This document shows positions 12,690 to 31,292 of a DNA stretch of 33,055 bases, piece by piece. The first letter of the stretch is position 1, and the number at the start of each line of letters is the position of its first letter. Position numbers and translations under genes: made by a program. This DNA is from Pseudomonadota bacterium (GTDB lineage Bacteria; Desulfobacterota; JAPLJL01), in assembly GCA_026388655.1 (NCBI GenBank), contig JAPLJI010000012.1:1-33055 (forward strand), read 5' to 3'. The notes beneath the pieces were generated by a model. It saw nothing but the letters and a program-made list of their open reading frames with translations. It had not been told where the DNA came from and searched no databases.

Positions 12690-13170
12690 TATAAACTGCC
12701 AAGACGCCGCGAAACCGAGATGCCGAGAAAAGATCCAAATTACAAAATCCAAAGGTCAAATGAATTTCGAAACCTAAATATTAAAACTTTAGGAGACCGT
12801 TGCAAAGAGCTTTTTCTGTCATTCTGAGCCACTTCAGTAGCGGGGCGAAGAATCTCTCTTCCGTCGAAGAAATCCGAAAAACCAGATCCTTCGCGAACAG
12901 ATTCGCTTCGCTCACTGCAAGGTTTATCCTGAGCCCTTCGAGATCCTTCACGGAGTTTACACTGAGCATTTTCAGATCCTTCGCTTCGCTCAGGATGACA
13001 AATCGCGAAGGGTTCAGAATGACAGGAAGTGAAGGGTTCAGGCGCCGTCCTGAATGAAATGAAGGAATGAGAAAGAGCGAAGGACTCAGGATGACATATC
13101 GGGGGTTTGGCAATGGTCTCTTTAGCCATTTGAACTTTGGATTTGATTGGGAATTTGAGCTTTGACCTTA
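12690..13170. repeat. Nested repeat cluster between pilR and uvrB
   Basis: A 480-bp gap with no believable gene. Outer flanks are inverted copies of family C (AAAATCCAAAGGTCAAATGA near 12741, ATTTGAACTTTGGATTTG near 13127). Between them lie several degenerate family B units in both orientations (GTCATTCTGAG near 12818, CTTCGCTCAGGATGACA near 12984, AGGATGACATATCG near 13088). Frames through it translate to the familiar repeat-derived strings with HPERSEGS or RSFASLRMT, so they are rejected as genes. In Geobacter-type loci pilA stands at this place. Confidence 0.75.
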
Positions 13171-16328: not shown

Positions 16329-17543
16329 TTAGCCCACCACCGAAGCGAGCGAGAAGATCGGGAGATACATGGCGATCAGGAATCCGCCGACGACCACGGA
16401 CAGGGCGATCATGATGGCCGGTTCGATCAGGGAGGTTAAACCGTCCACCGCGGCGTCCACTTCCACGTCGTAAAAGTCGGCGATTTTGTTGAGCATAGCG
16501 TCCAGGGCCCCGGTCTGTTCTCCCACCCCGATCATCTGGACCACCATCGAGGGAAAGACGTTGGTGGCCTTGAGGGGCTCGGCGATGGATTTACCTTCGG
16601 AAATGCTGATTTTGGCCTGCTGAATGGCCTTTTCGATGGTGACGTTGCCGGCGGTGCGGGAGCAGATCTCCAGACCTTCCAGGATCGGGACGCCGCTCGA
16701 GATCATCGTCCCCAGGGTGCGGGTGAAGCGAGCCACCGCCGTCTTACGGATAAGATCGCCGAACACCGGCGCCTTCAGGAAAAGGTCGTCGGTTACAGCC
16801 CGGCCCTTGACATTCTTGCGAAGGGCGCGGTAGCCGAAAACGAGGGCGACGATACCTCCGATGACATAAAGGATGTAATGCCGCATAAAATCGCTCATCG
16901 CCATCACCGCCCGGGTCGGGGCGGGGAGGACACCGCCCATGTCGGCGAACATCTTGGAGAAAACCGGGATAACGAAGATCAGGAGGACGAGGACGACCGC
17001 CACCAGGGCGACCAGGACCACCGCCGGGTAAACCATAGCGCCCTTGACCTTCCGCTTCAGGGCTTCGGATTTTTCCATGAAGACCCCGATTCGGTTCAGG
17101 ATGGTGTCCAGGATACCGCCGACTTCGCCGGCGGCGATCAGGCTGACGAAAAGCTTGTCGAAAACCTGGGGATGGCGCTCCAGGGCCTGGGCGAAGGTTG
17201 ACCCTCCTTCCACCGATTCCTTGACATTCATTAGGATGTTTTTAAAGTTCTTGTTCGGGTTCTGGTTGGCGAGGATATCCAGGCATTGGACCAGGGGCAG
17301 GCCGGCGTCGATCATGGTGGCGAACTGGCGGGTGAAGATGACCAGTTCGCGCATGGGAACTCCCTTGGCTCCGCCGAGGAAGGGCAGTTTGAGCTGGAAC
17401 CCGGGCTTTTTCTCCTTGACCTTGAAGGGGACGATCTGCTGGGTGCGCAGCTGCTGGATCAGCAGGCCTTCATTCTGGGCTTCGGTTTCTCCCTTGCGGG
17501 CTTCCCCCGATTTGGTTCTTCCCTCCCACACATATATTGGCAT
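16329..17543 (-). CDS. pilC: Type IV pilus inner-membrane platform protein PilC
   Basis: 404 residues of the T2SF/GspF-PilC family, with two cytoplasmic helical domains each followed by membrane helices. Hallmarks include the N-terminal MPIYVWEGRTKSGEARKG, FTRQFATMIDAGLPL (about 69-83), ESVEGGSTFAQAL, the mirrored ARFTRTLGTMISSGVPILEGL in the second half, and EPAIMIALSVVVGGFLIAMYLPIF at the C-terminus. PilC couples the PilB and PilT motors to pilin insertion and extraction. It lies 11 nt after pilT, in the standard order. Confidence 0.96.
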   Translation of the reverse strand: MPIYVWEGRTKSGEARKGETEAQNEGLLIQQLRTQQIVPFKVKEKKPGFQLKLPFLGGAKGVPMRELVIFTRQFATMIDAGLPLVQCLDILANQNPNKNFKNILMNVKESVEGGSTFAQALERHPQVFDKLFVSLIAAGEVGGILDTILNRIGVFMEKSEALKRKVKGAMVYPAVVLVALVAVVLVLLIFVIPVFSKMFADMGGVLPAPTRAVMAMSDFMRHYILYVIGGIVALVFGYRALRKNVKGRAVTDDLFLKAPVFGDLIRKTAVARFTRTLGTMISSGVPILEGLEICSRTAGNVTIEKAIQQAKISISEGKSIAEPLKATNVFPSMVVQMIGVGEQTGALDAMLNKIADFYDVEVDAAVDGLTSLIEPAIMIALSVVVGGFLIAMYLPIFSLASVVG

Positions 17544-17554
17544 TTTTATCCCCC

Positions 17555-18652
17555 TTATTTGTTTCCCGGACCCCGCCCAGCCTGGGCTACGGAGAGCATG
17601 TTCTTCACCTCTTCCGTGTCCGTGGAATAGCCGATGACATCTTCAAAGGTGATGAGTTTCCGCTGGAACAGGGCGATCAGGGACTGGTTCATGGTCTGCA
17701 TTCCGAACTTGGCCTGCCCGACCTGCATCTGGGAATAGATCTGGTGGATTTTATCCTCCCGGACCAGGTTGCGGATGGCGGGATTGGGAACCAGGATCTC
17801 GAGGGACAAGGCCCGCCCGGCCCCGTTGGCCTTGGGGATCAGGGCCTGGCAGAGGATTCCCTCCAGGACGAAGGAAAGCTGGGCCCGGACCTGGGGCTGT
17901 GCGTAGGGGGGGAACACGTCGATGATCCGGTTGATCGTCTGCACCGCCGAATTGGTGTGCAGGGTGGCGAAGCAGAGATGGCCGGTTTCGGAAATCTGCA
18001 GGGCGGTCTCGATGGTTTCCAGGTCCCGCATTTCCCCGATCAGGACCACATCCGGGTCCTGGCGGAGGATGTAACGGAGGGCGGCCTTGAAACTCTTGGT
18101 GTCGGACTGGACCTCGCGCTGGTTGACGATGCAATTTTTGTGAGGATGGAGATACTCGATCGGATCCTCGATGGTAATGATATGCTCGTGCCGGTCCTGG
18201 TTGATTTTGTCAATAATCGAGGCCAGGGTGGTGGATTTGCCGCAGCCGGTGGGCCCGGTGACCAGGATCAGCCCCCGCGGCTTGGCGGTGATCTCATTCA
18301 GGATCGGGGGAAGCCCCAGCTCCTCGAAGGTCAAAATCCGGAAGGGGATGGAGCGGAAAGCGCCCGCCACCGCGCCCCGCTGGATGAACATGTTGGCCCG
18401 GAAGCGGGAGAGTCCCTTGACCCCGAAGGAAAGGTCGAGCTCGTTTTCTTCCTCAAACCGGTGCTTCTGGGCGTCGGTTAAAATTGAGTAACAGATCTGC
18501 TTGGTTTCGGAGGGGTTGAGCGGCTCGGATTTGAGCGGCACCAGGCTGCCGTCGATCCGGAGCTGGGGAGGGGAACCGGTGGTAATATGGAGGTCGGAGG
18601 CCCCCTTTTCGATCATCAACTTGAGCAACTGGTGGAGATTGGCGGTCGCCAA
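17555..18652 (-). CDS. pilT: Type IV pilus retraction ATPase PilT
   Basis: 365 residues; hexameric secretion ATPase that depolymerises the pilus for twitching and DNA uptake. Motifs: SDLHITTGSPPQLRIDG in the N-terminal domain, Walker A GPTGCGKST (133-141), Asp box TIEDPIEYLH, Walker B DVVLIGEMRD, and the PilT-specific C-terminal AIRNLVRE. The start is TTG at 18652: AAGGAG stands 6 nt before it, overlapping the pilB stop codon, and the protein then begins MATANLHQLL as in relatives. Immediately downstream of pilB, so translation is probably coupled. Confidence 0.96.
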   Translation of the reverse strand: MATANLHQLLKLMIEKGASDLHITTGSPPQLRIDGSLVPLKSEPLNPSETKQICYSILTDAQKHRFEEENELDLSFGVKGLSRFRANMFIQRGAVAGAFRSIPFRILTFEELGLPPILNEITAKPRGLILVTGPTGCGKSTTLASIIDKINQDRHEHIITIEDPIEYLHPHKNCIVNQREVQSDTKSFKAALRYILRQDPDVVLIGEMRDLETIETALQISETGHLCFATLHTNSAVQTINRIIDVFPPYAQPQVRAQLSFVLEGILCQALIPKANGAGRALSLEILVPNPAIRNLVREDKIHQIYSQMQVGQAKFGMQTMNQSLIALFQRKLITFEDVIGYSTDTEEVKNMLSVAQAGRGPGNK

Positions 18653-18661
18653 GATTTCTCC

Positions 18662-20353
<1,692 letters not shown>

Positions 20354-20586: not shown

Positions 20587-20928
20587 ATGGAACTTGAAAT
20601 CACTTCCGAAAAGTGCATCGCCTGCCGGGCCTGCGAATTTGCCTGTTCCTATCACATGGATGGAGATTTTTCGAGCATCGGGTCCAGTATCATGATCCAC
20701 CGGGACGAGCGAAAGGACTACTTCGGACCGATCCTGAAGCGGTCCAAGGACATCCTGCTCGGCCGTCCGGAAAGGATAGAGATTCTCAAGCCCGGCCAGT
20801 CCACCACCGGGGGGGCGGCCGCTAACAAGCCGATCCTGATGCGGGGGCCCTGCGACCTCTGCCCCGATGAGAAGGTGCCCTTCTGCGTGGCGATCTGCCC
20901 AACCGGCTGTCTGCGGAAAAAGGAGTAA
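20587..20928 (+). CDS. Ferredoxin-like protein with two [4Fe-4S] sites, AOR partner
   Basis: 113 residues with two four-cysteine groups: C10-x2-C13-x2-C16-x3-C20 at the N-terminus (KCIACRACEFAC) and C-x2-C-x7-C-x3-C near the end (PCDLCPDEKVPFCVAICPTGC, interrupted here only by the spacing). The roughly 60-residue insert between them is typical of polyferredoxin-like partners encoded beside aldehyde:ferredoxin oxidoreductases and DMSO-reductase-type enzymes. It probably carries electrons to or from the AOR-like protein 4 nt downstream. Cytoplasmic: no signal peptide or TAT motif. A strong GGGAGGGG ribosome site precedes ATG 20587. Confidence 0.85.
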   Translation: MELEITSEKCIACRACEFACSYHMDGDFSSIGSSIMIHRDERKDYFGPILKRSKDILLGRPERIEILKPGQSTTGGAAANKPILMRGPCDLCPDEKVPFCVAICPTGCLRKKE

Positions 20929-20932
20929 GACC

Positions 20933-22441
20933 ATGGCGCTGGAAAAGGTATTTAACAACCGGATTCTCCTGGCGGATTTAACCACGGGGAAGTGCGAGGA
21001 AAGGGAACTGGGCGACAAGCTGGCCCGCGAGCAGTTGGGCGGGGCGGCCCTGAACCTCGAGCTTCTCCGCCGCTTCCCGGAGGGCGAACCCCTGGTGATC
21101 GGGACCGGACTCCTGACTTCGACTTTTTGCCCGGGGGCGGGCGTCGGGGTGGTGACGGCCAAAAGCCCCCGCTCCGGCCTGGTGGTCCACCATCCCTTCA
21201 TCGGGATGATTGGAATCGAGCTCAAGCTTTCGGGTTTTGATTTTATCGTGGTCCGCGGCCGGTCGGAAAAACCGGTCCGGCTCTGGCTGCACGACGAACT
21301 CGCCGAGGTCTCCCCGGCGGGGGAGGTGAAAGAGCTGGGCACCAACCAGGTGACCGGCCGGATCCGCGATGAATACGGGGACATGAACATCCACGCTTTT
21401 CAGGTGGGTCCGGCGGGGGCGGCGGGGAGTCCCCTGGCCATGATTTCCGAAAGCTGCTTCGGCGGCTATGACCGGGCCGGCCTGGGCCTGGCCCTGGCGG
21501 AAAAAGGTCTTTACGCCCTGGTGGTGAGAGGCCTGGGGAACCTGGAAGTGGCCGACGGGTTTTTCCCGGAATCCGCGAAACTCATGCAGGAAACGGCCCA
21601 GAGCCTGAAAGGAAAAACCGGGATCAAAGAGATTTTACGCCTCTGGGCCAAGGAAGATTCCTTTCTTCCCGCCCTGGAAAAGGTAACCCACCGCCATTCC
21701 GCCTGTTACAGCTGTCCCTTCCCCTGCCGGACCTTCGGATTCTTACGGGAAGACCCGGCCCGGAAGCTGGAAACCGATGCGTCCAATCCCGGCTGCTTAT
21801 TGATTGACCCGCAGGGGGTTCTGGCCCTTTCTTTCCTGGGGAATGACTATCCCCACGTTTACGAGCACTGCACCCAGCTGGGGGTGGACCCGGCGGCGGT
21901 GGGACTGATCCTGAAAGCCGAAGGGATAGGGGATAAGGAAGCCGCGGACAAGCGGATCGAAGCGCTGGTCAAGGAGAAAAAGGATCTGATCAACAGCAAC
22001 CAGAATAATTTCCACGGGGTTACCCCCTGGCCGGACGGCGGAGACCTTTCCGCGGCCCTGGTTCAGGCGGCCGGGGTGTTTTCCAACGGGATCCCGCCCG
22101 CGGTGCTTCCTCTTTCCACTCCCCCGTTCTCCCTCCCCTCCGATCCGGTGGAGAAGGCGGCCCTGGTCCTCGAGCGGACGGCCCTGGGCCTGATCCTGGG
22201 GGTCTGTCCGCTTCTGCTCCTCTCCACCCCGGTGATAACCCCCGCCCGGCTGGCCACCCTGGTCAAGCTGGCCACCGAGTGGGACGGGATCGGCGAGGAA
22301 GAGTTGAAAGCGAAGGCCAAATCCCTGATCGGGCAAACCCTGAAACTGGCGGCTCCCCGGGGAGCGATTTCGGAGGGTTTGAAACCCGCGGGGTTTGACG
22401 CGGCCTGGGCCGGATTGAAAAAGCGCTACGTTGAAGGCTAA
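20933..22441 (+). CDS. Aldehyde:ferredoxin oxidoreductase-like protein (short form)
   Basis: 502 residues, about 100 fewer than typical AOR. AOR enzymes use a tungsten (or molybdenum) bis-pyranopterin and one [4Fe-4S] cluster to oxidise aldehydes or reduce acids. Seen: N-terminal RILLADLTTGK and GGAALN; VGPAGAAGSPLAMI followed by YDRAGLG; cluster ligands C258-x2-C261-x3-C265 with the fourth, C425, in ILGVC; and the pterin-contacting LGVD motif (residues 316-319). The missing length is mostly between the cluster motif and C425, so substrate-pocket residues may be absent. AGGAG precedes ATG 20933, favouring it over earlier in-frame starts. It forms an operon with the ferredoxin upstream and the amidotransferase-like gene downstream (11-nt overlap). 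Substrate unknown. Confidence 0.85.
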   Translation: MALEKVFNNRILLADLTTGKCEERELGDKLAREQLGGAALNLELLRRFPEGEPLVIGTGLLTSTFCPGAGVGVVTAKSPRSGLVVHHPFIGMIGIELKLSGFDFIVVRGRSEKPVRLWLHDELAEVSPAGEVKELGTNQVTGRIRDEYGDMNIHAFQVGPAGAAGSPLAMISESCFGGYDRAGLGLALAEKGLYALVVRGLGNLEVADGFFPESAKLMQETAQSLKGKTGIKEILRLWAKEDSFLPALEKVTHRHSACYSCPFPCRTFGFLREDPARKLETDASNPGCLLIDPQGVLALSFLGNDYPHVYEHCTQLGVDPAAVGLILKAEGIGDKEAADKRIEALVKEKKDLINSNQNNFHGVTPWPDGGDLSAALVQAAGVFSNGIPPAVLPLSTPPFSLPSDPVEKAALVLERTALGLILGVCPLLLLSTPVITPARLATLVKLATEWDGIGEEELKAKAKSLIGQTLKLAAPRGAISEGLKPAGFDAAWAGLKKRYVEG

Positions 22442-23701: not shown

Positions 23702-24700
23702 GTGCAAAAGCTGATTAATAAACAGGTTTTATTCGGAGAGCGGAATCGAGGCTGGGGTTTCCGGATTATCCTTTCCATCCTTTTAGTTTTTATTTTGGGA
23801 TTGATTTACCTTCCGGATCAGGCCCGGGCCGAGGCCAGCTACGCCAAGGAATTCAAAATGCGCTGCATCCACTGCCACGTGGATAATGATTACCCCGGGG
23901 GCAGCTTCTACGAGGCGGAGAACAGCTATAAATGGATCTTTTTCTACGTCGCCACCGGGATCGCCGGGATTTTCTTTCTCACCGGCCTGGTTTCCTGGTT
24001 CCTGATCTGGCGGAAAGGAAAAAAGTCGCACGTCGTGGAGGAATACCAGCCCCGGACGATCCGCCGCTTTTTGATGGGCATTCTCCAACTGGATCTCTCC
24101 CGGATCTCGAAGCTCCGCTGGGTGAATTACCTCCTGCTCTCCGGTTCTTTCCTGACCCTGATCCTGCTCCTGATCCTGACCTACGGCTTGGCCCTCGGGC
24201 TCGGGACCCGCACCTTCACCCTGCCCGCCCCGGCCGGGCGGTTGATCGACCTGGGCCTGGACCTGCTGGGCTTGGCGATCCTCTCCGGAACCATCCTCGG
24301 ATTTCTCCGCCGCCTCCCCCCCCTGGCGAACCAGTATGTTTCCGCGGCGGTGGAGGACCTGACCAGCCTGGCTTTCATTTTCGTCCTGGTGCTGACCGGG
24401 TTCATCCTGGAGTCCTTCCGGATCGCGGCCCTGCCCAGCCACCCCGACCAACTCTATTCCTTCGTCGGGGCCGGCCTGGCCTGGGTCCTCCGGCACGCTC
24501 CCCTGCCCTGGGCGGTCTGGCATTTTTACTTCTGGAACATCCACATGCTCCTGGCCTTGGTTTTTATCGCCTACATCCCCTGGAGCGGGTTTTTCCATAT
24601 CCTGACCTGCCCGGTGACTCAGACCACTTCCCGGAAGAAGGAAGAGCGAATCCGTTTGGAGGCTTATGGAAAAGGAAGAACTGAGCCTGGAAAAGGTTAA
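23702..24700 (+). CDS. Membrane protein with haem c site and DsrM/NarI-like cytochrome b helices
   Basis: 332 residues. A first hydrophobic helix (about 20-38) is followed by a periplasmic haem c site, C55-I-H-C58-H59. About five further membrane helices follow (78-103, 141-167, 180-203, 216-237, 272-300). The last carries WHFYFWNIHMLLALVFIAYIP with H274 and H281, and H299 nearby, like the b-haem helices of DsrM, HdrE and NarI, though fewer His are seen than the four NarI ligands. Such proteins exchange electrons with menaquinone. The start is GTG 23702, with a weak ribosome site. It overlaps the Rieske gene by 35 nt, so it belongs to that operon. NarI/DsrM assignment is by pattern, not certain. 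Confidence 0.75.
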   Translation: MQKLINKQVLFGERNRGWGFRIILSILLVFILGLIYLPDQARAEASYAKEFKMRCIHCHVDNDYPGGSFYEAENSYKWIFFYVATGIAGIFFLTGLVSWFLIWRKGKKSHVVEEYQPRTIRRFLMGILQLDLSRISKLRWVNYLLLSGSFLTLILLLILTYGLALGLGTRTFTLPAPAGRLIDLGLDLLGLAILSGTILGFLRRLPPLANQYVSAAVEDLTSLAFIFVLVLTGFILESFRIAALPSHPDQLYSFVGAGLAWVLRHAPLPWAVWHFYFWNIHMLLALVFIAYIPWSGFFHILTCPVTQTTSRKKEERIRLEAYGKGRTEPGKG

Positions 24701-25190
24701 ATATACCCGGAGGCGGTTTTTCATCCTGGGCGCCACCGCAGTGGCCGGGGTGGCCCTGGCCGGGATCGTCGGGGGCGGTCTGATCGCTTTTTTCTTCCCG
24801 CCCAAGCGCTTCCGGAAAAAGATCGGGGGCTGGCAGAAAGTAAAGCCGGCGAGCGAGTGCCCGGAAGGGATGGCGGTGACCTCGAGCTACTTCGGGATCC
24901 CGGTTTTTATCCTGCGGGAGGGCGGAAAGGTAAAGGCCTTTTCCGCCGTCTGCCCGCATCTGGGCTGCATCGTGAAGTGGGATCCGGAGCAGAAGGTATT
25001 TCCCTGCCCCTGTCACGATTCCTTCTTCACCTCCCAGGGCCTGGTGCAAAAAGGCCCGGCCCGGCCCTACAACCTCCTGCCCTTTGAAGCCAAGGAGGAG
25101 GAGGGGATGGTCCTGGTCAGCCTGCCGGCGCCGGAAAAACTCAAGCCTTATCCCAGCTGGTTCCGGTTCGCGATGCAATACGGCGGATAA
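24666..25190 (+). CDS. Rieske [2Fe-2S] protein of a cytochrome bc/b6-type complex
   Basis: 174 residues. A twin-arginine-like RRRFFILG (15-22) precedes the single membrane anchor (about 20-44). The Rieske fold binds its cluster through C96, H98, C114 and H117 (CPHLGC and CPCHDSFF), with C101 and C116 placed for the usual disulphide. It would take the first electron of quinol at the Qo site and hand it to a c-type haem. Its gene precedes the cytochrome b6- and subunit IV-like genes, the petC-petB-petD order of Heliobacteria. A 151-nt gap full of short word repeats separates it from the cytochrome gene. Confidence 0.94.
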   Translation: MEKEELSLEKVKYTRRRFFILGATAVAGVALAGIVGGGLIAFFFPPKRFRKKIGGWQKVKPASECPEGMAVTSSYFGIPVFILREGGKVKAFSAVCPHLGCIVKWDPEQKVFPCPCHDSFFTSQGLVQKGPARPYNLLPFEAKEEEGMVLVSLPAPEKLKPYPSWFRFAMQYGG

Positions 25191-25195
25191 AGAGC

Positions 25196-25340
25196 ATGGC
25201 GCAAAGCGCAAAGAGCAAAGAGCAGGGAGCAGTAAAAGCAGGTGAAAGGTCAAGGGTGAAAGGAATTAACGAACTAAACGAAAATAACGTTCTTAACGAA
25301 CCTAACGTTCTTAAGGATATTAACAAACCTGACGAACTAA
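25196..25340. repeat. Low-complexity word repeats inside the Rieske/cytochrome b operon
   Basis: First part: repeated GCGCAAA and GAGCAAA words (about 25200-25235). Second part: alternating TAACGAAC and TAACGTTC words, with TAACGTTCTTAA occurring exactly twice, at 25285-25296 and 25303-25314. No coding frame or clear terminator. A similar GCAAAGCGCA string lies at 30136-30165. Confidence 0.7.
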
Positions 25341-25341
25341 A

Positions 25342-26100
25342 ATGAGGAAAGCGATTCAATATATTAAAGACCTGCTGAAAAGTTTCTCCCAGGCCCTGGA
25401 TACCCCGGGAGGAATCACCCGCTGGATTAACAATACCTGGCTGGACCTCAAGGAGACGGGCCTCAACTGGCTGGAGGAGCGTTTCCGGCTCCGGAAGCCG
25501 ATCGAAAAAATCCTGGATAAACCCGTTTCCGGCTTCGAGCGCAAGTGGCGCCACTGCTTCGGGGGGATTACCCTGACCTTGATCGGTCTCCAGCTCGCCA
25601 CCGGGGTTTTCCTTTCCTTTTATTATATCCCGTCCGTAGATCAGGCCTTCGAGTCCATCCAGATGATCACCGACGAGGTGGCCTTCGGCTGGCTGGTCCG
25701 CGGGATTCATCACTGGTCGGCATACCTGATCGTGATCACCATGCTCATCCATCTGCTCAAGGTTTTTATCACCGGCTCCTACCGCCCGCCCCGGGAATTC
25801 ACCTGGGTCAGCGGGGTTTTGCTGCTCCTGATCGTATTCGGTTTCCTGGCCACGGGCTATCTGCTCACCTGGTCCCAGCAGGGGTATTGGGCCTCCCGGG
25901 TGGCTATGGGTGTGGCCGGCGAGGTCCCGGCGGTGGGGTCGACAATCCTCCTTTTCGTCCAGGGCGGCTACGTGATCAAGCAGGCGGCGCTGACCCATTT
26001 CTTCACCGCGCATGTATTTCTGCTCCCGGTCGCTGTTATTGTTCTCCTGGGCGTGCATTTTGCCCTGATCCGGAGGCTCGGAATCCAGAAACCGTTATAA
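25342..26100 (+). CDS. Cytochrome b6-type subunit (with haem c_i cysteine)
   Basis: 252 residues, four membrane helices, matching the N-terminal half of cytochrome b. Haem b ligands: H123 and H137 in helix B (14 apart), H224 and H239 in helix D (15 apart, the spacing of b6 rather than mitochondrial b). The segment HCFGGITLTL places C72 where b6 has Cys35, which covalently holds haem c_i at the Qi side; GIQKPL after helix D matches the b6 end GISGPL. Compared with b6 it has some 35 extra N-terminal residues, amphipathic and charged. It forms the quinone-reactive core with the Rieske protein and the subunit IV-like protein. ATG 25342 lacks a clear ribosome site. Confidence 0.94.
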   Translation: MRKAIQYIKDLLKSFSQALDTPGGITRWINNTWLDLKETGLNWLEERFRLRKPIEKILDKPVSGFERKWRHCFGGITLTLIGLQLATGVFLSFYYIPSVDQAFESIQMITDEVAFGWLVRGIHHWSAYLIVITMLIHLLKVFITGSYRPPREFTWVSGVLLLLIVFGFLATGYLLTWSQQGYWASRVAMGVAGEVPAVGSTILLFVQGGYVIKQAALTHFFTAHVFLLPVAVIVLLGVHFALIRRLGIQKPL

Positions 26101-26128
26101 AAAGTATGGAAACTATTAAATATAAATT

Positions 26129-26286
26129 CCCCTCCCTCGATGGCCTCCGGCTCTGCTTCCAGCCCGTAGGGCTTACAGGCCAGAGGGTAGAGCCTCCGGC
26201 TCGGAGAGGAGGGGACAGAGGGGAGGGTGATTCAATGAAATTTTCACCCTCTCCTGTTTCCTCCCCCCTCAAGGGGGAGGAGCAAA
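26129..26286. repeat. Repeat family A copy inside the cytochrome b operon
   Basis: Shares CTTCCAGCCCGTAGGGCTTA, GGGTAGAGCCTCCGGCTCGG and the hairpin GAGGGTGA-N12-TTTTCACCCTC with the copies at 6234, 28791 and 31328. It ends CCCCCCTCAAGGGGGAGG. It occupies nearly the whole 200-nt gap between the b6- and subunit IV-like genes. Confidence 0.75.
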
Positions 26287-26300
26287 AACAGGTAACGTAG

Positions 26301-26741
26301 ATGGAACCGGAAGCCCAAAAACCCGAGATCCCGCAGATAGAGAAACCCCCGGTGGAAGCCCCGGGAGACGAGCTCACCTTTTTTCCCAAGGTGGTCCTGG
26401 GGGAGTTCCTGGCACTGCTGCTCACGGTTGGGGTGGTGGTGGCGCTCGCGGTCCTGATTCCGGTCGGGTACGAGGAAAAGGTCAATACCCTGATCACCCC
26501 GGCGGGGGTGAAGGCGGAATGGTACTTCCTCTGGACCTACCAGCTCATGAAGCTCGTCCCCGTCCTGGTGGGGATGGGGATCCTCGCTCTGATCGTAGTC
26601 CTGATTTTTATCCTGCCCTGGCTGGACCGGAAACCGGGGCGGAAGATCGGGGAACGGATCTGGGTGATCGCGATTGGATTAATGATCCTGGCCGGCATCG
26701 GCGTCCTGACCTTCTGGGCGCTTTTGCCGGGAGGAGAATAA
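26301..26741 (+). CDS. Cytochrome b subunit IV-like protein (PetD-like C-terminal half)
   Basis: 146 residues with about three hydrophobic helices (50-72, 92-112 and 120-142), as in subunit IV of b6f. The Qo-site signature PEWY appears as AEWYFLWTYQLMK (near residues 73-85): the Glu that accepts quinol protons is present, but the leading Pro is Ala. The preceding ITPAGVKAEWYF resembles the family's TPxxIxPEWYF. An N-terminal proline- and glutamate-rich extension of about 25 residues is unusual. Lies after the b6-type gene beyond a repeat element, so the operon is interrupted by 200 nt, yet pairing with the b6-type subunit is obligatory for function. Confidence 0.9.
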   Translation: MEPEAQKPEIPQIEKPPVEAPGDELTFFPKVVLGEFLALLLTVGVVVALAVLIPVGYEEKVNTLITPAGVKAEWYFLWTYQLMKLVPVLVGMGILALIVVLIFILPWLDRKPGRKIGERIWVIAIGLMILAGIGVLTFWALLPGGE

Positions 26742-26742
26742 T

Positions 26743-26868
26743 AAAATCCAAATGTCAAAATCCAAAGTTCAAAATAATTTCCAAATGATAAAATCCGAGT
26801 CTCAATATAACCTGAGCGGAGGTTGTCATCCTGAGCGGAGCGAAGGATCTGAAAACTTTGGCAAGGTT
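26743..26868. repeat. Repeat family C and B copies before the cytochrome c-CCG gene
   Basis: AAAATCCAAATGTCAAAATC and related words (26743-26790) are followed by a family B unit, GTCATCCTGAGCGGAGCGAA (from 26824). An open frame runs through both into the next gene and would add 39 residues containing the repeat-derived HPERSEGS; these are not believed to be translated. Confidence 0.75.
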
Positions 26869-28674
26869 ATGAAGTTGATTTTGAAAAGAAGATATTTTTC
26901 CATCTTCTTGATTCTTCTCATCTTTACTTCCACGCTTTTCGCGGCGGAGGAGCCAAAACCCAAAACCGGGCCCGAGCTTTACCAGAAATTCTGCGGCGCC
27001 TGCCACGGCGAGAGGGGCAGGACCTACCAGCCCAACATCGGGGTCAAGCAGGCCGGGAGCGAGGTGATTCCCTCCCTGGATACCGAGTCTTTCCGGAGGG
27101 CCCTGACCACCGATGAGTTCAAGGATATTTTTGACCGCAAGAAAATCATCGAGACGATTCGGAACGGCTCCGAGGTCAAGGGGACCGAATCCACCACCTC
27201 GATGCCGGCCTTCAAGGAGAAACTCACCCCGGCGGAGGTTGATCTTATCCTCCAGTACCTGGCCAAACTTTCCGGCCAGCGCCCGACCCGCTATTCCGCG
27301 GGCCGGCTCGCCTTCCTGATCGGGATCTGGATCTTTCTCGGCGGGGCGATCGCCGGGGCCTATATTTTAAGCCGGCCGGATTACCCGAATTCCCCCCTGA
27401 TCCCGATCTCGAACCTGGAAACCCGCCAGCTCCTGGAGCCGAATGCCTGCACCCGCTGCGGGGAATGTATCAAGTGGTGCCCGGTCTTTGCCATTGACAG
27501 CGAGGAGAGGCTGACTCCGCGGGAGAAGTGCACCCGTTTCCGAAAACTCGTCCAGGAACAGCAGGGGCCCCTGGCCAGCTGGCTGGGGATCAACCCGGTG
27601 CCGAAGAGCCGGGTGGAGGAGTTCCACAAATTTCTGCTCGAGTGCTCCACCTGCGGGCAGTGCCACATCGTCTGCCCGGCCGCGATCGACACGGTGGACC
27701 TCTGGGAGAACATCCGCCGGTCTTTCGTGGATGCGGGTCTGCTCCTGCTCCCCAACCAACAGCCCCTGATCGCCTCGGTCAAATCCTACGATAACCCCTG
27801 GCAGCAACCGCGTTCCTCCCGGGGCAAGTGGGCCAGCCGGGCCAAGCGGGAGAAGCGGATCGCCGCGGAGCCCAAGAACCTGGCCAAGGAGAAGGCGGAG
27901 GTTCTTTATTTCGTGGGTTGCACCGCTTCCTACGATGTAAATGTCAAAGAAGTGGCGATCAACACCACCAGGGTTTTAAACAAGGCCGGGGTGGATTTCG
28001 GGATTCTGGGGAACGAGGAGCGCTGCTGCGGCTCGGTCCTTCTCCGGATGGGTGATTACGAGTTCGAGCGGCTCGCCGGGCAGAACATCGAAACCTTCAA
28101 TAAGCTCGGGATCAAGACCCTGATTACCTCCTGTGCGGGCTGCTACAAGACGATCAAGCAGGATTATCCCCGGGTGGGGAAGCTTAATTTCGAGGTTTTA
28201 CACATGACTGAATTTGTCATGAGATTAATTAAAGAAGGGAAGCTCAAGCTGGAGAAGCCGGTTAATCTAAAGGTCACCTACCACGACCCCTGCCACCTGG
28301 GCCGGGCCAACCAACTCTTCGACGTGCCCCGGGAGGTCTTGAAATCCATCCCCGGGATCGAGTTCACGGAGATCGAGCGCTTCGGCGAGTATTCCCGCTG
28401 CTGCGGGGCGGGGGGAGGCCTGAAGGCCGGCTACCGGGAGGTGCAGGAGGAGATGGCCCGGACGCGGGTGAAGGACGCGATCAACACCGGGGCCACCGAG
28501 TTCGTGACCGCCTGCCCCTTCTGCTACCAGGCGCTCCTGACCGGCATCCAGGGCCTGGGCGCGCCCCTGAACATGCGGGACATCAACGAGCTGATCATCA
28601 TGTCCCTGGGCGACGAGCCGGGCGAGAAGTCCGCCGCCAAGCCCGAAAAAGAAGAGCCCGAAAAACCCGCCTAG
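26869..28674 (+). CDS. Fusion: secreted cytochrome c - TM helix - 2[4Fe-4S] ferredoxin - two CCG (HdrD-like) domains
   Basis: 601 residues from ATG 26869, chosen because the chain then starts with a clean signal sequence (MKLILKRRYF, then a hydrophobic core to A25) and the earlier codons are repeat sequence. Order: monohaem cytochrome c with C42-G-A-C45-H46 and likely axial M112; membrane helix about 147-167; ferredoxin domain with C194/C197/C200/C204 and C259/C262/C265/C269; CCG domain 1 with C351, C386-C387, C422 and C425; CCG domain 2 with C475, C511-C512, C549 and C552. CCG domains bind noncubane [4Fe-4S] clusters in HdrB/HdrD and recur in DsrK, GlpC and EMO. Topology predicts a periplasmic haem and a cytoplasmic FeS half. 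It stands where a petA-like cytochrome c would be in the operon. Confidence 0.9.
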   Translation: MKLILKRRYFSIFLILLIFTSTLFAAEEPKPKTGPELYQKFCGACHGERGRTYQPNIGVKQAGSEVIPSLDTESFRRALTTDEFKDIFDRKKIIETIRNGSEVKGTESTTSMPAFKEKLTPAEVDLILQYLAKLSGQRPTRYSAGRLAFLIGIWIFLGGAIAGAYILSRPDYPNSPLIPISNLETRQLLEPNACTRCGECIKWCPVFAIDSEERLTPREKCTRFRKLVQEQQGPLASWLGINPVPKSRVEEFHKFLLECSTCGQCHIVCPAAIDTVDLWENIRRSFVDAGLLLLPNQQPLIASVKSYDNPWQQPRSSRGKWASRAKREKRIAAEPKNLAKEKAEVLYFVGCTASYDVNVKEVAINTTRVLNKAGVDFGILGNEERCCGSVLLRMGDYEFERLAGQNIETFNKLGIKTLITSCAGCYKTIKQDYPRVGKLNFEVLHMTEFVMRLIKEGKLKLEKPVNLKVTYHDPCHLGRANQLFDVPREVLKSIPGIEFTEIERFGEYSRCCGAGGGLKAGYREVQEEMARTRVKDAINTGATEFVTACPFCYQALLTGIQGLGAPLNMRDINELIIMSLGDEPGEKSAAKPEKEEPEKPA

Positions 28675-29776: not shown

Positions 29777-30130
29777 TTGATCGAGAGATTCATCATCTTT
29801 GTTTCCGATGGGCCGTACCAGAGCTTGAAGCCCTACTCGGCCCTGCGCTTCGCCCGGTCGCTCCGGTCCCGCGGAAAAGAAGTGAAAATAATTTATTACG
29901 TCGATGGGGTCCACTGCGTGAGGAAGGGAGTTGGACACGGGTCGAAGACCGTGGGCGATTACGAAGCCCAGGTCCTGGCCGCCCTCGGCGACGGGATCAA
30001 GATCTCCGCCTGCCCGGCCCCGCTTTCCCTGTATAAATACACCGAGGCCGACCTGATTTCCGGGGTGACCGTGGCCGAGAATATCGCTGACGATCTGACC
30101 GATGAGTCGGCGAGGCTGTTTTGGCTGTAA
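29777..30130 (+). CDS. DsrE/F-like family protein
   Basis: 117 residues with the DsrE-like alpha/beta fold: FIIFVSDGPYQSLKPYSALRFA at the N-terminus, VKIIYYVDGV in the second strand, and KISACPAPLSLYKYTE with C79 where DsrE relatives carry a sulphur-accepting Cys; GVTVAENI closes the fold. Family members relay persulphide sulphur or are of unknown role. The start must be TTG 29777: a stop lies 36 nt upstream, no ATG or GTG fits, and GGAG is 9 nt away. It precedes a radical SAM gene by 73 nt, a gap holding a short GCGCAAAG word repeat. Confidence 0.8.
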   Translation: MIERFIIFVSDGPYQSLKPYSALRFARSLRSRGKEVKIIYYVDGVHCVRKGVGHGSKTVGDYEAQVLAALGDGIKISACPAPLSLYKYTEADLISGVTVAENIADDLTDESARLFWL

Positions 30131-30203
30131 AAACTGGCAAAGCGCATAGCGCAAAGGGCAGAGTGCAAGGCGGCCTTCCCTATTAAATATCGAGGTTGTT
30201 CCT

Positions 30204-31292
30204 TTGAATCCCAAGGAAATCGCTGAATTAAAGACCGAGCTGCAGAGTCTCGGGGTGAGGCTCGAAGCGGATTCGCCCCGGCGTGAGGGAGGAGCGGGGC
30301 CGGCCGAGGGGATTACCCTGATTATCGAGGGCATTCCCGCCACGGTCCCGACCATCCCCCGGCTGGCGAAAAAATCGCCCTATTCCCTCAAAGAAAAAAA
30401 GGGGAGGTTCGAGCTTTTTCAGAATGAAATTTTCCTGGGCGAGGTCCGGTTGGGCGGGTCGGCCAGGTTTTACGATGAACTGGATTCCCAGGGCCGACCT
30501 CTCCGGCTTTTCGCCCTTCTCCACGGGGAAGACTGTCTGGCCACCACGGTCAACCAGGTCTGCGCCTATTACGCGCAGGGAAAAGGCTGTCTTTTCTGTG
30601 GGATCGGCATTTCTTTAGACCGGGGCAAAACCGTTGCGTTCAAGGATCCGGAAACCCTGGCCCGGGCGGCCCGGAAAGCCAGGGAACTAGACGGGGTAAA
30701 ACACGTGACGCTGACCACCGGCACCCAATCCACGCCCGACCGGGGGATCGTGGACCTCGCCCGGGCGGCCCGGACGATCAAGGAGGCCACGGAACTCCCC
30801 ATTCATGTCCAAGCCCTGCCTCCCGATGACCTGACCTGGTTAAAACACCTGTCGGATAACGGGGTGGATACGATTGGCATCCATGTCGAAACCTTTTCCC
30901 CGAAAGTGCTAAAAAAGATTTCACCTTCCAAGAGCGAGATCGGCTACTCCCGGTTCATCGAGGCCTGGAAGCGGGCGGTGGATGTCTTCGGGCGGAACCA
31001 GGTCTCGAGCTACCTGATTGTGGGCCTGGGGGAAGAGGACGCGGAGGTGATCAAGGGCGCCGGCCTGCTCGCCGAACTCGGTGTTTATCCTTTTATCGTT
31101 CCCTTCCGACCGATTCCGGGGACACCGATGGAGAACCATTCCCCTCCCGCCCCGAAACGGATGAAGAAGATTTACCGGGAGGCGAAAACCATTCTGAGGC
31201 GGAACAATCTTTCCGCCCGGGAGGTCAAAGCCGGCTGTGTCCGCTGCGGGGCCTGCTCGGCCCTGCCGATTTATGAGACCATTCCCGATTAA
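30204..31292 (+). CDS. Radical SAM protein, MSMEG_0568-like family
   Basis: 362 residues. The cluster motif is not the classical CxxxCxxC; the chain has C111-LATTVNQV-C120-AYYAQGKG-C129-LF-C132, matching the LATTVxQxC...CxFC pattern of the MSMEG_0568/Sll0785 family. A C-terminal GCVRCGACSALP (C345, C348, C351) is another family hallmark and may hold a second cluster. The barrel follows with HVTLTTGTQ and GIHVETF. Family members are found in the Nit1C cluster with a nitrilase and a GNAT, linked to nitrogen starvation and cyanide use; their reaction is unknown. TTG 30204 is the likely start (GAGG 8 nt before). The GNAT partner follows after a repeat; no nitrilase is present. Confidence 0.85.
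   Translation: MNPKEIAELKTELQSLGVRLEADSPRREGGAGPAEGITLIIEGIPATVPTIPRLAKKSPYSLKEKKGRFELFQNEIFLGEVRLGGSARFYDELDSQGRPLRLFALLHGEDCLATTVNQVCAYYAQGKGCLFCGIGISLDRGKTVAFKDPETLARAARKARELDGVKHVTLTTGTQSTPDRGIVDLARAARTIKEATELPIHVQALPPDDLTWLKHLSDNGVDTIGIHVETFSPKVLKKISPSKSEIGYSRFIEAWKRAVDVFGRNQVSSYLIVGLGEEDAEVIKGAGLLAELGVYPFIVPFRPIPGTPMENHSPPAPKRMKKIYREAKTILRRNNLSAREVKAGCVRCGACSALPIYETIPD

Follow-up and report, generated by a model that had tools for sequence, protein, structure and literature searches.

The b6f and b6c complexes of heliobacteria and cyanobacteria are encoded in the order petC-petB-petD, with a haem ci cysteine and a quinol-oxidising (Qo) site of the PEWY type. In anammox bacteria, the b6/subunit IV (SUIV)/Rieske complexes Kustd1480-1485 and Kuste4569-4574 carry a putative NAD(P) oxidoreductase on their cytoplasmic side (PMC12954380). 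The Geobacter proteins ExtO-ExtP-ExtQ are also homologs of Rieske, b6 and SUIV and occur together with a porin and multihaem cytochromes; neither a CCG nor a NarI-like subunit is named there (PMC5877670). HdrDE and the mycobacterial EtfD (9OJN, PMC13083937) combine a five-helix NarI-like domain with 2[4Fe-4S] and two CCG domains, EtfD being a single chain with a bis-His b haem and without Rieske or b6. Ferredoxin and AOR-like enzymes with membrane electron-transfer partners are represented by the membrane-associated Class V WOR and E. coli YdhYVWXUT (PMC13328260). Here we describe a five-gene cluster in which parts of these systems occur together. It lies in a 33,055-nt stretch of DNA (contig JAPLJI010000012.1, assembly GCA_026388655.1) from an uncultured, anaerobic Pseudomonadota bacterium (GTDB Desulfobacterota; JAPLJL01); this whole stretch is called the window, and all positions are numbered on it unless another locus is named. 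The five genes and their products are called A to E, and a GATase-like gene upstream is called P7.

Conservation of the five-gene cluster

The cluster A-B-C-D-E is located on the + strand at 23702-28674, the genes A and B overlapping. It encodes an EtfD/NarI-like membrane protein with a haem c (A), a Rieske protein (B), a b6-type cytochrome b (C), a SUIV-like protein (D) and a cytochrome c-CCG fusion (E). An earlier note on this DNA had listed these motifs, proposed that the Rieske/b6 and EtfD/HdrDE-like modules form one complex, and named co-occurrence of the five genes in relatives as a check. A was searched against 395 genomes of the phylum, matches of over 300 bits being taken as ortholog-like. 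There were eight such matches, after which the scores fell to 176 bits. They belong to three genomes of the same genus as the window, to genome G032 and to four genomes of the family f8. The order A-B-C-D-E was found in all eight genomes from three families, seven of them besides the window's own (in G002, a genome of the window's own genus, the cluster is split over two contigs), and the cluster proteins share about 39–54% identity between lineages. The cluster and its motifs are real, and the recurring order rules out a chance arrangement.

The distribution of the cytochrome c fusion was analysed in 45 loci whose CCG ortholog has an identity of 44% or more. The CCG subunit carried a fused cytochrome c at 7/7 loci that have Rieske and b6 and at 0/38 loci that do not, and the unfused CCG ortholog usually occurs without Rieske. 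The earlier note had named as a refuting outcome that the fusion gene only rarely stands beside the Rieske/b6 genes in relatives, which did not hold. Conservation of the gene order in three deep lineages, and the restriction of the cytochrome c–CCG fusion to loci with Rieske/b6, support the view that the two modules are one evolutionary unit. That part of the one-complex proposal stands; the physical association of the five subunits we infer mainly from gene-fusion logic and conserved order, which are not proof. In a tree of E, the Rieske-type rows failed to form one clean clade, and a scan of viral contigs with E gave no match.

A second view of the family was obtained by a profile scan with P7 over 84,980 species, the best 80 of 108 loci being kept. 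It recovered seven of the eight genomes and no others; the missing one is the window's own, which possibly lay outside the scan output. Clusters of the Rieske type in which P7 is absent or strongly diverged would escape such a scan. Among the kept loci, P7, often with the ferredoxin and AOR-like genes, precedes different electron modules: relatives keep the GATase-like–A–CCG genes while other modules swap in. Type I is the A-B-C-D-E arrangement with Rieske/b6, and type II consists of the NarI-like and CCG proteins alone. Type III comprises a hexahaem cytochrome, a b561-like protein, a heptahaem-NarI protein and CCG; it is common in Desulfobacteraceae and is exemplified by locus L129 (11247-15694; b561/FdhC-like, with a heptahaem-NarI fusion). 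Type IV (L101 and L084) has an iron-sulphur (FeS) protein, NrfD, a molybdopterin protein, a pentahaem cytochrome, a haem c-NarI protein and CCG; at L101 8055-18424 (= L084) it follows ferredoxin–AOR–P7, and its molybdopterin protein is QrcB/PhsA-like. Type V, in Actinobacteria and archaea, has HdrA/HdrBC-type modules. In an archaeal variant (L164 8364-17703, and L165), the genes after ferredoxin–AOR–P7 resemble HdrC, HdrB and HdrA or have the size of MvhD. The series is read most economically as a catabolic oxidoreductase of the cytoplasm that is wired to differing acceptors, the Rieske/b6 core being the one used in type I.

The Rieske/b6 core

The Rieske 2Fe-2S protein B (24666-25190, +; Rieske 54 bits) carries the motifs CPHLGC...CPCHDSFF, with the C-x-H...C-x-x-H ligand pattern of the bc/b6f superfamily, and a Tat-like N-terminal anchor. 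A low-potential Rieske centre, considered because of a Tyr→Phe change, was dropped: Kustd1480 has the same change and a midpoint potential (Em) above +300 mV (PMC12954380). C (25342-26100, +; cytochrome b/b6 168 bits) has cytochrome b6 as its best PDB match (E 5e-57), with two ligand pairs for b haems, His123/137 and His224/239, and Cys72 aligned to the haem ci cysteine of b6. Both His pairs and the ci cysteine are invariant in 7/7 genomes aligned. D (26301-26741, +; cytochrome b C-terminal/petD domain 48 bits) has the Qo motif AEWY instead of PEWY, which is present in the other families; in two genomes D was found only with another frame choice. The two His pairs of C and the EWY of D are traits of the bc/b6f superfamily, and the split between b6 and SUIV together with the haem ci cysteine is that of the b6f subtype. 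Among NCBIfam models, D matched ExtQ best and ExtP ranked second for C, both with scores under the cut-off. No second b6 homolog that might partner the Rieske protein was found in the window's genome, C being the only one.

Compared with b6f/b6c, the c-type acceptor is here fused to a cytoplasmic CCG protein, an extra subunit (A) is present, and no petA-like open reading frame (ORF) for cytochrome f was seen in the cluster, its c-type domains sitting in A and E. The cytochrome c of E is the only evident c1/f equivalent apart from the haem c of A.

Subunits A and E

E (26752-28674, +; CCG 120 bits) consists of a signal/transmembrane segment, a cytochrome c domain (CGACH, SMPAF), a second transmembrane segment, two 4Fe-4S motifs and two CCG domains. 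Its annotated start reads through 26830-26848, between D and E, where one copy of the dispersed repeat CCTGAGCGAAGCGAAGGAT lies; the other copy is at 12976-12994. The N-terminal extension is therefore spurious, and the true start is probably the ATG at 26869, followed by a signal-like helix. E matches EtfD at E 7e-49 and stays far under the cut-offs of the curated DsrK and HdrB models (the nearest NCBIfam being DsrK, 90.9 vs 400 bits). In EtfD, one CCG motif contains a Thr, and the other cluster, D2, is capped by a His (PMC13083937). Both CCG motifs of E are complete, as in HdrDE/DsrMK, and E has neither the Thr change nor the capping His. The ligands thus look Hdr-like, not EtfD-like, and catalysis at the CCG clusters is possible. 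In f8 genomes (E of L099, L123, L126 and L140) the axial motif SMPAF of the fused cytochrome is changed to SQPAF or SQPTF.

A (23702-24700, +) is a protein of 332 aa with one CIHCH motif (C55-I-H-C58-H59), for a periplasmic haem c, behind a signal-peptide-like N-terminus, followed by a membrane domain. Its score against the Pfam NarI family is 16.6 bits, under the cut-off of 22.9, and its predicted fold (mean predicted local distance difference test (pLDDT) score 71.8) is closest to the membrane domain of EtfD (9OJN) and to NarI. The domain set of EtfD, the ETF:menaquinone oxidoreductase (EMO), that is, NarI-like, 2[4Fe-4S] and two CCG domains, is thus present here, split over A and E, with a haem c gained on A and a cytochrome c on E. 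The single b haem of EtfD is liganded by His78 and His241 (PMC13083937). When the profile of A was aligned to EtfD residues 15-253, these two residues fell on Asn142 and His299, and Asn142 replaces His78 in every Rieske-type genome read. Types II and III retain the His78 equivalent, as do three EtfD-like proteins of the same genome; it is lost in types I and IV, precisely the two that combine a single haem c on A with a further quinone-reactive module. The earlier description of A as NarI/HdrE-like has to be qualified, since A is not an ordinary member. With one of the two haem-b ligands of EtfD lost from A, and both b-haem pairs plus the ci cysteine intact in C, A is probably no longer a quinone/haem-b site. 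Conservation of His274 is confined to type I; this residue lies close to where the last helix presumably ends on the periplasmic side, and it may serve the haem c of A.

The genes upstream and the neighbourhood

The earlier note had limited the cluster to the five genes, which are in fact the last five of eight same-strand genes, ferredoxin–AOR-like–P7–A-B-C-D-E. A pattern scan, which is weak evidence, found no promoter-like site on the + strand between ~20.5 kb and 28.98 kb, consistent with a single eight-gene transcript. The first gene encodes a small ferredoxin-like protein (20587-20928, +; two 4Fe-4S cluster motifs). In most relatives it precedes the AOR-like gene, and it is the probable electron carrier of the AOR-like protein. 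The latter (20939-22441, +; 500 aa; CYSCPFPC; AFOR_N 126 bits) is short, its C-terminal Pfam domain scoring under the cut-off; the predicted fold, that of a tungsto/molybdopterin enzyme, has a pLDDT of 90 and 1AOR as top PDB fold (TMq 0.84). The gene is present in 8/8 type-I genomes, though G001 has only a C-terminal piece, where a contig ends, and G318 only an N-terminal one. The CxxCxxxC motif is kept in the window's own genus, G032, G068 and G184 and is lost in other relatives. Loss of the motif (CFNT.., DFNS..) in the f8 and archaeal proteins (alignment A11; L080 9511-10791, L129 8425-9798, L164 8700-9929) suggests that their role may be changed or non-redox.

P7 (22431-23627, +) is a BPL_N/class I GATase-like protein (a homolog matches PF09825 BPL_N) with an invariant Cys97 in SCAGA and a weak match to peptidase E/PdxT-type folds. 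In loci retrieved with P7 its linkage holds by construction; independent support comes from the contexts retrieved with A, in which P7 is upstream of A except in the distant loci L088 and L093. The ferredoxin–AOR-like–P7 trio is widespread in Desulfobacterota, Actinobacteria and archaea, usually beside a CCG electron-transfer module, and we have seen no earlier description of it. Compared with Class V WOR and YdhYVWXUT, the AOR-like protein here is short and paired with P7 and with Rieske/CCG modules. The link of the ferredoxin–AOR-like pair to the cluster is good as genomics and putative as biochemistry. In relatives, the flanking genes include those for an SsuA-type ATP-binding cassette (ABC) importer and for a GlcD-like FAD oxidase, which comes with a CCG protein of its own. 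Also among them are genes for an aldehyde dehydrogenase, a GntR regulator and a radical S-adenosylmethionine (SAM) protein of the MSMEG_0568 family.

In the window, a DsrE/DsrF-like gene (29777-30130, +), an associated neighbour outside the complex, is followed by a gene for a radical SAM protein of the MSMEG_0568 family (30204-31292, +), the pair spanning 29777-31292. The radical SAM protein has weak similarity to LipS2, and relatives of it lie near the same cluster in other lineages. Just upstream of the eight genes and divergent from them are PilC/PilT/PilB-like type IV pilus genes (16329-20353, −).

A candidate path for electrons

We tentatively favour, at somewhat less than even confidence, a membrane complex in which the Rieske/b6 menaquinol core would connect an oxidoreductase in the cytoplasm with the cytochrome c pool of the periplasm. 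A cytoplasmic ferredoxin/AOR-like (and GATase-like) enzyme would give electrons to the CCG and 4Fe-4S clusters of E at the inner face, and these would pass to the inner side of b6/SUIV (haem ci/Qn site), reducing menaquinone. Menaquinol would be oxidised at a Qo site formed by B and D, and the Rieske protein would hand electrons to the haem c of the cytochrome domain of E, of A, or of both. A would anchor E as in EtfD/HdrDE, the quinone chemistry having moved to C/D with the loss of the haem-b site. We infer the physical assembly, its interfaces, the path from CCG to b6, the direction of flow and the substrate. The more specific idea, that cytoplasmic 4Fe-4S and HdrB-like noncubane clusters are wired firmly into the inner (haem ci/Qn) side of Rieske/b6, the Q-cycle coupling the cytoplasmic CCG reaction directly, whichever way electrons run, to quinone and cytochrome c, seems to us conceivable and on balance doubtful.

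In favour of the proposed complex, the fusion places a periplasmic haem and a cytoplasmic CCG module in one chain. The position of the CCG ortholog after P7 (mostly with ferredoxin–AOR) and the ABC importer and dehydrogenases nearby in relatives suggest that electrons would flow outward from catabolism. The earlier note had quinol oxidation driving the CCG reaction, which now appears less likely than outward flow from the cytoplasm, and its heterodisulphide or ETF partner gives way to the preceding ferredoxin/AOR-like/GATase-like set as the more likely one. An ETF partner was rejected: the CCG motif is without EtfD signatures, and no etfAB genes are present among the cluster ORFs, as judged on gene neighbourhood only. 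Several observations weigh against the proposed complex. The transport and catabolic neighbours come mostly from relatives without Rieske. G032 has the five genes and P7, and its ferredoxin–AOR pair lies elsewhere on the chromosome. In f8, the AOR-like protein is without its 4Fe-4S cysteines, which makes a redox role there doubtful, and the fused cytochrome has Gln at the would-be axial Met position. The structure predictions are of single chains only.

The leading alternative, which we regard as unlikely, is that the operon encodes two complexes. An EtfD/HdrDE-like A–E would reduce menaquinone and Rieske/b6 would oxidise menaquinol with the cytochrome c of E as c1/f, through a shared pool or a loose supercomplex and with no direct CCG-to-b6 transfer. 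Ordinary Q-cycle logic would suffice for this, A retains His281 and His299, and orthologs of A and E occur without Rieske/b6 in most relatives (types II and III). However, the loss of the EtfD haem-b ligand in the Rieske-type A removes the known quinone wire, and the cytochrome c and the CCG part of E form one covalent chain in the Rieske type alone.

Rather improbable in our estimate is a quinol-driven bifurcation as proposed for anammox, in which menaquinol oxidised at Qo would send one electron to Rieske/cytochrome c and the other, via bP-bN-ci and the FeS clusters of E, to a low-potential cytoplasmic acceptor (ferredoxin, the AOR-like product or a disulphide). The combination of b6, SUIV, haem ci and a cytoplasmic FeS module is that of Kuenenia Kustd1480-1485 (PMC12954380), and the complete CCG motifs of E, without the D2-capping His of EtfD, could be catalytic. 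Yet this mechanism requires a high-potential acceptor, and heme-copper oxidase genes, clearly present in two f8 genomes, were not found in the window's own genus, G032 or the f8 genome G257; moreover, the neighbours in relatives look catabolic, that is, electron-donating. Finally, a heterodisulphide or DsrC-type reductase (HdrDE/DsrMK-like) fed by quinol electrons is very unlikely and was rejected as the leading idea, since, for all the Hdr-like complete CCG motifs of E and the DsrE-like gene downstream, dsrA was found in only 1/8 type-I genomes (G318, not the window's), E scores far below the DsrK model and the haem-b wire of A is altered.

The nearest precedent remains the anammox complexes, with which the cluster has in common a b6-type cytochrome with SUIV and Rieske, non-f c-type cytochromes, a cytoplasmic FeS redox module and menaquinone. 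They differ in their putative NAD(P) oxidoreductase and multihaem cytochromes; here no NAD(P)/FAD oxidoreductase subunit is present in the cluster, and an EtfD/HdrDE-like A and a CCG protein fused to a monohaem cytochrome c are found instead. Rieske/b complexes with a cytoplasmic redox module are thus known, whereas the CCG-fused subunit set appears to be undescribed: in agreement with the earlier note, no description of the A-B-C-D-E set was found in the open-access literature, subscription literature being outside the search. If the five subunits form one complex, it would follow the anammox complexes as the second example of a Rieske/b6 core linked with a redox enzyme of the cytoplasm, and would bear on the role of haem ci and on the entry of ferredoxin-type electrons into b6-type complexes. 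The relatives form a natural series, with five different electron modules serving one and the same cytoplasmic partner, so that the contribution of Rieske/b6 can be compared directly.

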